A DNA stretch of 38,257 nucleotides from Candidatus Pacearchaeota archaeon (GTDB lineage: Archaea; Nanobdellota; Nanobdellia; Pacearchaeales; GW2011-AR1): contig JAFCDI010000008.1 of NCBI GenBank assembly GCA_017609755.1, positions 1 to 38,257 of the forward strand, written 5' to 3'. The number at the start of each line of letters is the position of its first letter. Positions within the stretch are counted from its first letter, which is position 1. Both the position numbers and the translations under genes were made by a program. The notes below the pieces were generated by a model, which was not told the DNA's origin, made no database searches, and saw nothing but the letters and a program-made list of their open reading frames with translations. This document shows, in pieces, positions 14,999-16,765 of this stretch.

Positions 14999-15343
14999 AT
15001 GACAGTTTCGATTGATGATTTTATACCAACAGCTACAGAAGAGCAAAAACAAGTATTATTTAATTTGGCACTTTTAGCAGAAAGAGAAAATGAAATATGT
15101 AAAAAATATAATGAAAAAATAAAACCTTATTCTGAAATGGCTAAAAAAGAAAATCCTATAATTCAAGAAGATGCTGGAGACTTTGCACTTTTAGCAACCA
15201 AAGAAGAAAGAGATGAATTAAAAAGAATTAGAGAAAAGATGAAAACATTATATATGAAAGCTGTTGAAATTGGAATGAAGGATTTAGGAATAATTCAAAG
15301 ATATTATGAAAATTATGTTGGAGAATCTATAAATAATCAGTAA
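14999..15343 (+). CDS. Hypothetical protein
   Basis: 114-aa ORF MTVSIDDFIPTATEEQKQVLFNLALLAERENEICKKY... Confidence 0.65.
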   Translation: MTVSIDDFIPTATEEQKQVLFNLALLAERENEICKKYNEKIKPYSEMAKKENPIIQEDAGDFALLATKEERDELKRIREKMKTLYMKAVEIGMKDLGIIQRYYENYVGESINNQ

Positions 15344-15351
15344 GCTTTAAA

Positions 15352-15565
15352 AACTCTCTAGAGTTCTAATTATATCAGAAAAATATCACTTTCACACTCA
15401 TTTTGAGCTTTTGCTCTTAAATCGTGAATATAGAGGTATTTTTCTAGCAAAATCATTAGATTTTGAATAATTAAATAAAGAAAATAAAAATGCATTCAAA
15501 ACCAGATTGTGTCTATGCACAGAACTGAGTTAAAGGTTTTGAATACAAAGAAAACAGTAGTTTTC
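15352..15565 (+). promoter_or_regulatory. Run of five stem-loops upstream of dnaG (terminator and/or structured leader)
   Basis: AACTC/GAGTT (15352-15365), AGAAAAATA/TATTTTTCT (15377-15445, inner GAGC-TTTT-GCTC), CAAAATC/GATTTTG (15448-15465), ATTCAAAACC/GGTTTTGAAT (15494-15544), GAAAAC/GTTTTC (15550-15565). Confidence 0.5.
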
Positions 15566-15592
15566 AAGCATTTTATTCAGGAGAACAAACAT

Positions 15593-16765
15593 ATGGCAAA
15601 AATAAGTCCTGTATCAATAAAATATATGATACATGTTAGTTTTACAGCCGAAGGTGCATTAGAAAAACCAGATGTTATTGGAGCATTATTTGGACAAACA
15701 GAAGGATTGCTTGGAGCTGACTTAGAAATGCGAGAACTTCAAAAAGAAGGAAAAATTGGAAGAATTGAAGTTGATTTAGAAAGAAAAGATAAAAAAACAA
15801 CTGGAAAAATCAAAATTCCCACTGCATTAGATCAGTCAGAAACAACTCTAATTGCTGCTGCTATTGAAACAATTGAAAGAATTGGGCCTTGTGACTCTCA
15901 GATAGATGTTGAAAGAATTGAAGATGTTAGAGGAAGCAAAAGAGATTACATCATTGACAGAGCTAAAAAATTAATGAAAGAAATTGAAGGCTCAACTGAT
16001 TCAAGAGAAATTTCAAATGAAATCAAAGACTCTAAAAGAACTTCAGAAATTCTAGAATATGGAGAAGAAAAACTTCCTTGTGGAGATATCTCTGGAAAAG
16101 AATTAATTGTTGTTGAAGGCAGAGCAGATGTTCTAAATATGCTAAGAAATGGTGTTAAGAATGTAATTGGAATGAATGGAACAAAGCTTCCAAACTCAAT
16201 AAAAAAGCTAAGTGAAGAAAAAGAAATAACTCTATTTTTAGATGGAGATAGAGGAGGAAAACTAATTGCTCGAAATGTTATGGATAATGCAAAAGTAGCT
16301 TACATTGCAGTTGCGCCTGATGGCAAAGAAGTTGAAGAATTAACTGGAAAAGAAATTCTAGCAAATCTTAGAAAAAAGATTCCTGCAGAGGATTTCTTTT
16401 CTAAGATTTCTTTTAAAGAATTAGAAAGAGAAGATATCTCTTTAAAAAAATTACAAGAACAAGAATTAGAAAAAAAAATTGAATTAAATAAAGAAACTGA
16501 AAACAAGTTAAAAGAAATATCAAATAAAAATAAAAAATCTAATAAAGCAATTATTCTAAATGAAAATCTAGAAGAAATAAAAACAATTTCAACTCGAAGT
16601 TTGAATAATTTTCTAAAAAGAAATAAAGAAAAGGTTTTTGTAATAGTTATCGACGGAATAGCAACTAGTTATTTAATCTCTAATGCAGAAGAAATTGGAT
16701 GTAAAATAATTGTTGCTAAAAATTTTGCTACAACTGATACAAATATTAAACTATTAAGCCTATAA
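15593..16765 (+). CDS. dnaG: Archaeal DnaG-like primase/exosome protein
   Basis: MAKISPVSIKYMIHVSFTAEGALEKPDVIGALFGQTEGLLG; Toprim ELIVVEGRADV, LFLDGDRGG; start at 15593 (AGGAG at 15579-15583) rather than 15509. Confidence 0.93.
   Translation: MAKISPVSIKYMIHVSFTAEGALEKPDVIGALFGQTEGLLGADLEMRELQKEGKIGRIEVDLERKDKKTTGKIKIPTALDQSETTLIAAAIETIERIGPCDSQIDVERIEDVRGSKRDYIIDRAKKLMKEIEGSTDSREISNEIKDSKRTSEILEYGEEKLPCGDISGKELIVVEGRADVLNMLRNGVKNVIGMNGTKLPNSIKKLSEEKEITLFLDGDRGGKLIARNVMDNAKVAYIAVAPDGKEVEELTGKEILANLRKKIPAEDFFSKISFKELEREDISLKKLQEQELEKKIELNKETENKLKEISNKNKKSNKAIILNENLEEIKTISTRSLNNFLKRNKEKVFVIVIDGIATSYLISNAEEIGCKIIVAKNFATTDTNIKLLSL

Follow-up and report, generated by a model that had tools for sequence, protein, structure and literature searches.

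The leader of the archaeal dnaG gene analysed here appears to be a junction of two RNA modules, the downstream one belonging to a family that may act as a translational switch coupled to a short upstream open reading frame (uORF); we assign this reading a probability of about 0.5. Module 1 (15377–15465) represents the ancestral, dnaG-specific leader, a 5'-terminal helix around a UCAC-repeat loop followed by a hairpin. Module 2 (15487–15577) is one copy of a dispersed, previously undescribed RNA element in which a decoy start (D) is followed by ACAN, a hairpin, AGC and, as D', the reverse complement of D. The switch proposal is grounded in sequence comparison, namely in the existence of a family, its structure, position and orientation, a D' strand complementary to D as well as to the gene's own start, and a reading-frame bias; switching as such, its coupling to the uORF and a factor acting on the core are what we infer from these.

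Genomic context of the dnaG leader

The window, that is, the whole 38,257-nt stretch analysed, corresponds to contig C3 in an archaeal genome of 0.55 Mb whose nearest named relatives are metagenome-assembled genomes (MAGs) of Candidatus Pacearchaeota and Nanoarchaeota. The family survey covered 181 Pacearchaeota genomes, which are incomplete MAGs; its scans used strict filters, so that the copy and genome counts given below are lower bounds, and the E-values from covariance models built in this analysis are rough. The N-terminus MAKISPVS, common to the relatives' DnaG proteins, supports the dnaG start at ATG 15593. The frame open from GTG 15509 (ATG 15515) does not represent a conserved DnaG N-terminus, relatives being devoid of that sequence. 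A TATA box, which in Pacearchaeota dnaG leaders typically lies 28–33 nt 5' of the first helix arm, predicts transcription to start near 15376, upstream of all RNA features described here.

The first-pass annotation had described repeats and stems between 15448 and the start codon and read them as a candidate switch with mutually exclusive pairings. With each position checked in the sequence, every string was found where it had been placed: TTTTGAAT at 15461–15468 and again at 15537–15544, its complement ATTCAAAA at 15494–15501, a perfect 10-bp stem, two further hairpins, the AGGAG and the ATG (table). In 1000 dinucleotide shuffles of 15448–15592, an 8-mer followed by its complement and by the 8-mer again had a chance probability of 0.004 and a perfect stem of at least 10 bp one of 0.038, while 15448–15620 folded with a minimum free energy of −31.8 kcal/mol (z=−3.1). 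These repeats and stems exceed chance, and they are split between two separate RNA modules. Two helices had been absent from the earlier description, namely AAAATGC (15487–15493) paired with GCATTTT (15568–15574), which closes a three-way junction, and a conserved helix (AGAAAAATATC with GGTATTTTTCT) 5' of the annotated interval. A tandem duplication of the upstream hairpin and ribosome-binding site (RBS) segment as the source of the second TTTTGAAT was rejected (alignment p=0.09), being superseded by the homologous copies described below.

Table. Features of the dnaG leader and further element copies in the same genome
Feature	Position	Strand	Basis
dnaG TATA box, CTTTAAAA	15345–15352	+	TTTAAAAAC-like box in relatives
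P1 5' arm AGAAAAATATC, at predicted mRNA 5' end	15377–15387	+	covariance model R1, covariation
UCAC/UCAU motif ACTTTCACACTCAT in P1 loop, short in window species	15388–15401	+	motif count
P1 3' arm GGTATTTTTCT	15435–15445	+	covariation; pairing probability 0.9–1.0
P3 hairpin CAAAATC-ATTA-GATTTTG (upstream hairpin of the first-pass annotation)	15448–15465	+	covariation
D, outer-helix 5' strand AAAATGC of inserted element	15487–15493	+	pairing probability 0.5–1.0
Putative short uORF MHSKPDCVYAQN (then stop) from decoy ATG, out of frame with dnaG	15490–15528	+	sequence
Second-stem 5' arm ATTCAAAACC, three-way-junction subtype	15494–15503	+	homologous stems elsewhere
Small subtype-specific hairpin UGUGUCUAUGCACA	15507–15523	+	equivalents CUGUGCCUACGCACAG / CUGCGCCUACGCGCAG
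Second-stem 3' arm GGTTTTGAAT	15535–15544	+	folding
Dispersed-element core ACAN–hairpin–AGC with outer strands	15537–15579	+	R2, 43.2 bits, E=4.5e-10 in the window (window among the R2 seeds)
Core hairpin GAAAAC-AGTA-GTTTTC	15550–15565	+	covariation of 29 members
AGC and D' GCATTTTATT, outer-helix 3' strand	15567–15577	+	family comparison
Shine-Dalgarno AGGAG	15579–15583	+	sequence
dnaG (archaeal DnaG, exosome-associated RNA-binding protein)	15593–16765	+	NCBIfam NF003108, E=1.5e-118
Element copy L319, window genome	G000:C13:9155-9198
Element copy L487, window genome	G000:C16:37950-37996
Element copy L488, window genome	G000:C16:9107-9151
Element copy L489, window genome	G000:C15:33717-33776
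Element copy L490, window genome	G000:C23:3050-3091

Module 1 is a conserved leader RNA of dnaG

Starting at the predicted transcription start and closed at its 3' end by the hairpin P3, module 1 follows a layout common to the relatives and the window: TATA box, ~30 nt, P1 5' arm, UCAC loop, P1 3' arm, P3, A-rich linker, RBS and ATG. A covariance model (R1) derived from 12 relatives, with the window left out, matched the window at 15374–15472 (E=1.2e-4 in its own genome) and returned matches in 66 of the 181 family genomes. Sixty-one of 62 matches checked lay directly 5' of dnaG, the remaining weak one looking like chance. In 70 matches, a few of which are opposite-strand chance matches, P1 was 96.7% paired, with double changes at 9 of its 12 pairs and 33 double-change cells versus 7.4 after shuffling (0/500 shuffles as high); close relatives alone revealed no covariation at P1 pairs, divergent members being needed. 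P3 was 99.2% paired in 21 sequences, with double changes at all 6 pairs (30 cells; 0/500 shuffles), as compared to at most 62.7% when its partner strand was slid. Compensatory changes, on which the first-pass annotation had staked its candidate switch, were found in relatives for this module as well as for module 2.

On average, a P1 loop contained 2.38 UCAC motifs, as compared to 0.22 once shuffled (n=82). Among the TCAC triples of 20 genomes, the only intergenic ones were dnaG leaders; the others lay inside ORFs, and UCAC repeats were accordingly discarded as a regulon signal. Masking of the RBS by the P1 3' arm was likewise rejected, the complementarity not exceeding that of shuffles (mean z −0.36).

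For a spread beyond the family the evidence is weaker: P1 arms were picked there as the best stem, and just one quarter of the sequences scored above their shuffles. By visual inspection and best-stem scanning, Woesearchaeota leaders often harbored UCAY motifs together with a P1 that differs in sequence (AGAACAAG/CUUGUUCU), and the leader layout was not seen in Thermococcus and Archaeoglobus dnaG upstream regions. Outside DPANN, two dnaG leaders from Pyrohabitans / Hydrothermarchaeota (L067 and L085) resembled the Nanoarchaeia leader, with a 22-bp P1 and three UCAC motifs.

Several further observations concern dnaG loci. Two assemblies (G089 and G130) each contained two dnaG loci, both with the conserved leader, which may reflect duplication or mixed bins. 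Woesearchaeota dnaG upstream regions (e.g. L261, L253, L056, L058, L075) carried a structured-looking second conserved segment, GCCCGCCACGAGAGUACUC...GAUGAGCUUGGGAGUUAGUGUUGCGGGC, 5' of the leader, which in the loci tested matched no Rfam family at gathering score. Other lineage-specific inserts between P3 and dnaG (L038, L129, L139, L013, L150) carried short uORFs that begin at the ancestral start site, some overlapping the dnaG start. Within the gene, codons 2–10 (window 15596–15622, and relatives) displayed synonymous variation reduced by 0.73–0.78 bits, codon 5 being AGT in 76 of 83 sequences; we set this constraint aside as evidence because it is partly generic, EF-1A codons 2–11 showing 0.41 bits.

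With respect to function, we infer module 1 to be a protein-binding site, probably an autoregulatory one. Archaeal DnaG associates with the exosome and possesses an N-terminal RNA-binding domain (PMC4227792), rendering autoregulation through module 1 plausible, and a conserved structured leader placed uniquely 5' of the regulator's own gene is the arrangement of autoregulated leaders. An extended version, in which P1, the UCAC loop and P3 would bind DnaG or the exosome for autoregulation and the region as a whole would exist for this purpose, would account for the near-exclusive position of R1 matches and of intergenic TCAC triples, and we consider it quite possible, if somewhat short of an even bet. 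RNase PH-family (Rrp41/Rrp42-type) genes were present in 29 of 33 genomes, mostly as a tandem pair; no Csl4 (EXOSC1) domain was detected in 33 relatives, although the Pfam model may miss it. The extended version has further to contend with a reported preference of DnaG for poly(A) rather than UCAC, and two papers searched mention no autoregulation. Archaeal autoregulation through an RBS-hiding leader is known for L7Ae (PMC6298567): its folding 5' leaders resemble the role that P1 might play in the dnaG transcript, but they are bound at a kink-turn, whereas the dnaG leader features a UCAC loop and no kink-turn was seen by eye.

Module 2 belongs to a dispersed RNA element family

DNA searches returned homologues of module 2 in another genus, including tandem copies, with E-values down to 1.7e-12. 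A pattern describing the core occurred sparsely across the class and at 35 places in 17 of the 181 family genomes, as compared to none for a backward control pattern. Beyond the four stem pairs that this pattern prescribes, the first pair (next outer) was formed in 33 of 35 Nanoarchaeia matches and at least two further unforced inner pairs in 30 of 35. The corresponding figures for viral contigs, 36/80 and 4/80, were at chance level, and since these IMG/VR matches behave as chance, a viral origin of the element was rejected.

Across 29 members, the core and outer helix contained 65 double-change cells versus 26.3 ± 3.9 in shuffled alignments (0/500 as high), that is, the conserved, covarying structure typical of riboswitches. 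A second covariance model, R2, detected copies in 62 of the 181 Pacearchaeota genomes; the richest contained 14, and the window's own contained six. Stems that R2 recovered outside the first pattern (ACAACGAAA..UUUCGAGC, ACAAUAAAA..UUUUUAAGC, GAGAAUC..GAUUCUC) lend independent support to a structured hairpin. Tandem units were found in G184 (three), L514 (three), at iscU (two) and in L336 (two). In the window's genome, L319, L487, L488 and L490 precede genes that, by eye, we take to encode GluRS, ribosomal protein S8, ribosomal protein L37Ae and a membrane protein, respectively; the place of L489 is unassigned.

Neither module is represented in Rfam 15: at gathering threshold the window returned tRNAs only, 15250–15700 at relaxed threshold gave chance-level matches only, and the relatives' loci yielded a single tRNA. 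No description of either module was found in the open-access literature searched.

The copy in the dnaG leader

Module 2, composed of the 10-bp stem and the structure following it, comprises most of what the first-pass annotation had found. The segment after ~15480 was absent from the dnaG leaders of two same-genus genomes (L004 and L005), and D sits where relatives have their RBS and start. Among ~97 distinct dnaG leaders, the element was recognised only in the window and in L320/L044, a second dnaG leader with module 2 architecture. Homologues of the second stem with other sequences occurred in the G010 copies, L309, L320, L507 and L496, and the small hairpin UGUGUCUAUGCACA with its equivalents was 97.9% paired and contained 3 double-change cells, a count that 14/500 shuffles also attained. 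In the predicted fold of the window, D is closed with D' and the RBS lies mostly outside; AGGAG shows weak predicted pairing with TCCTG 15606–15610.

This copy, of the three-way-junction subtype, may be weakened, degenerate or a relic. Its D' shows little complementarity to the dnaG start (dG −1.1, z +0.9), the first core pair of other copies is an A–A mismatch here, and the frame through its core is fused to dnaG without a stop at the start codon. Together with the absence of the element from same-genus species, these features would suit a decayed, functionless relic, dnaG being controlled only by the conserved upstream leader, which we regard as possible but rather doubtful: the three-way junction is still predicted to be stable (probability 0.84–1.0 for the 10-bp stem, ~1.0 for the core hairpin), and R2 still credits the copy with 43 bits, the window being among its seeds.

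Most element copies precede start codons, and candidate uORFs often cross them

We read 40 element copies, 37 of which could be given a same-strand downstream ORF, in part the longest nearby one. In 32 of these 37, the element lay 9–45 nt before the downstream ORF in sense orientation, with a peak at 15–20 nt. By eye, the host genes presumably encode ribosomal proteins (L3, L13, L19e, L32e, L37Ae, L39e, S3Ae, S8), EF-2, GluRS, the exosome subunits Rrp41/Rrp42, DnaG, RtcB, proteasome alpha, a histone, IscU and NifS; many belong to translation and RNA handling, otherwise without an obvious common pathway.

A decoy of the gene's own start was often found 5' of the core; in L511, L519 and L337 it extended over 25, 27 and 44 nt, respectively. 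Decoys aligned to their own start with a score of 20.5 versus 13.9 for other genes, and D' paired with its own gene start at a mean of −8.0 kcal/mol versus −4.8 for mismatched genes (permutation p<1/5000 in both cases). R2 includes the D–D' helix, so that D–D' pairing is partly built in, whereas the similarity of decoy to start and the complementarity of D' to start are not. Across the family, though not in the window copy, D' was complementary to both D and the gene's own start, to the latter in most other copies; several copies lacked a decoy and some lacked strong D'–start pairing.

Of the three reading frames, the one ending in AUGA ran through the element without a stop in 18 of 32 copies, as compared to 2 and 9 for the other two. 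Of 38 ATG-initiated uORFs through the core, 28 ended within −12 to +15 nt of the main ATG, 12 of them as ATGA. The family thereby presents the uORF at the main start that characterises uORF-coupled attenuators, unlike the window copy with its fused frame.

Two copies are described for their own sake. L336 (G394), before an AMP phosphorylase-like gene, contains two tandem decoy-plus-hairpin units, each a uORF that starts like the gene and ends in ATGA over the next start. In L506 (G153:C27), the IscU behind the element copy gives the sequence impression of an intein-like insertion after its first cysteine.

A proposed translational switch and its alternatives

We propose the following mechanism for the family. 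The order of parts would be D, often a decoy of the host start; the conserved core, ACAN–stem–AGC; D'; and then the real RBS and start. With D' paired to D, the core would be closed and the real RBS free; with D' paired to the real RBS and start, these would be blocked. The short uORF, from the decoy or a core AUG, would cross the element and terminate on the main start codon, in many cases through an AUGA overlap, and a ribosome translating it might peel D' off the RBS and then reinitiate. The core would be the site at which a factor tips the D' balance. Speaking against this switch are the window copy's lack of clear D'–RBS pairing, its A–A first core pair and its frame fusion, the copies without a decoy or strong D'–start pairing, and host genes that, apart from the many with roles in translation and RNA handling, have no obvious pathway in common.

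A self-propagating repeat would also be in line with the tandem copies and the sporadic presence. The element could be a palindromic repeat of the MITE or REPIN kind, selfish or duplicated passively, that settles at gene starts and duplicates them, regulation being incidental. As in such repeats, copies are dispersed and numerous (up to 14 per genome), sometimes in tandem arrays, sporadic among orthologues, and flanked on both sides by direct repeats of the gene start. Random orientation, defined ends and a fixed-length target duplication were not observed: the orientation is sense, the spacing to the start codon is a tight 15–20 nt, the repeats vary in length, viral contigs gave no signal above chance, and D' is gene-specific, complementary to the start of the very gene it precedes, a feature that could not arrive with a mobile unit. 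We therefore deem a mere repeat unlikely, if by no means negligible.

Programmed translational bypass, with ribosomes starting at the decoy and hopping the hairpin to the duplicated start, might explain the first-codon decoy copies and hairpins (44 nt in L337, ~21 nt in L336), but is very improbable given uORFs that mostly traverse the hairpin in a reading frame with a stop of its own at the main AUG and a main gene that retains its start and, in many cases, its RBS.

The switch named by the first-pass annotation, in which the two copies of TTTTGAAT compete for ATTCAAAA in a dnaG-specific manner, has next to no probability left, real and above chance as the repeats are: the pairing of 15461–15468 with 15494–15501 has a probability of ~0 and costs 9.9 kcal/mol in forced folding, because 15461–15465 is locked in P3, the independently covarying hairpin of a different element, and the insert is both missing from sister species and present before many other genes. 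What survives is the principle of one strand with two partners, for which the family provides support, D' being complementary, in much of the family, to an upstream decoy or to the true start region.

Comparison with known systems

The proposed switch shares with translational riboswitches and other RBS-sequestering platforms a conserved core and a 3' strand that serves both an upstream and an anti-RBS helix; the element differs in not being confined to a single pathway, in its gene-specific outer strands and host-start decoys, in its many copies per genome and in having no Rfam match. Like the uORF-coupled attenuator of Salmonella mgtQ-mgtB (PMC8092293), it would combine a short ORF, alternative stem-loops over this ORF and RBS masking, yet here a dispersed multicopy RNA core is common to unrelated genes, the peptide is not conserved and the core is read in all three frames. 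REPIN and MITE repeats are likewise short, multicopy, intergenic hairpins with tandem units, whereas the element is strand-specific, anchored to start codons and equipped with a complement specific to the host gene. Bypassing in the mobile byps elements and in T4 gene 60 also involves a hairpin insert and repeated flanks near codons; the element, in contrast, lies at gene starts and leaves the downstream start intact, with the uORF stop at the main AUG.

Implications

To our knowledge, hardly any regulatory RNA has been described from DPANN archaea. The element may be an on/off switch of protein synthesis that can be reused from gene to gene. More speculatively, and we hold the full scenario to be rather unlikely, Nanoarchaeia might harbor self-spreading cis RNA switches, in which a ~25-nt hairpin core is inserted at gene starts, captures a start decoy, generates its reverse complement and is uORF-coupled from birth, alongside an ancient autoregulatory UCAC leader of dnaG that possibly extends to Hydrothermarchaeota. 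If true, a dispersed element that adapts to any gene start would represent a new route to switches for small genomes and would bear on the origin of riboswitch expression platforms. The dnaG leader, for its part, offers a concrete case for the possible control of an exosome-associated archaeal protein via its own mRNA.
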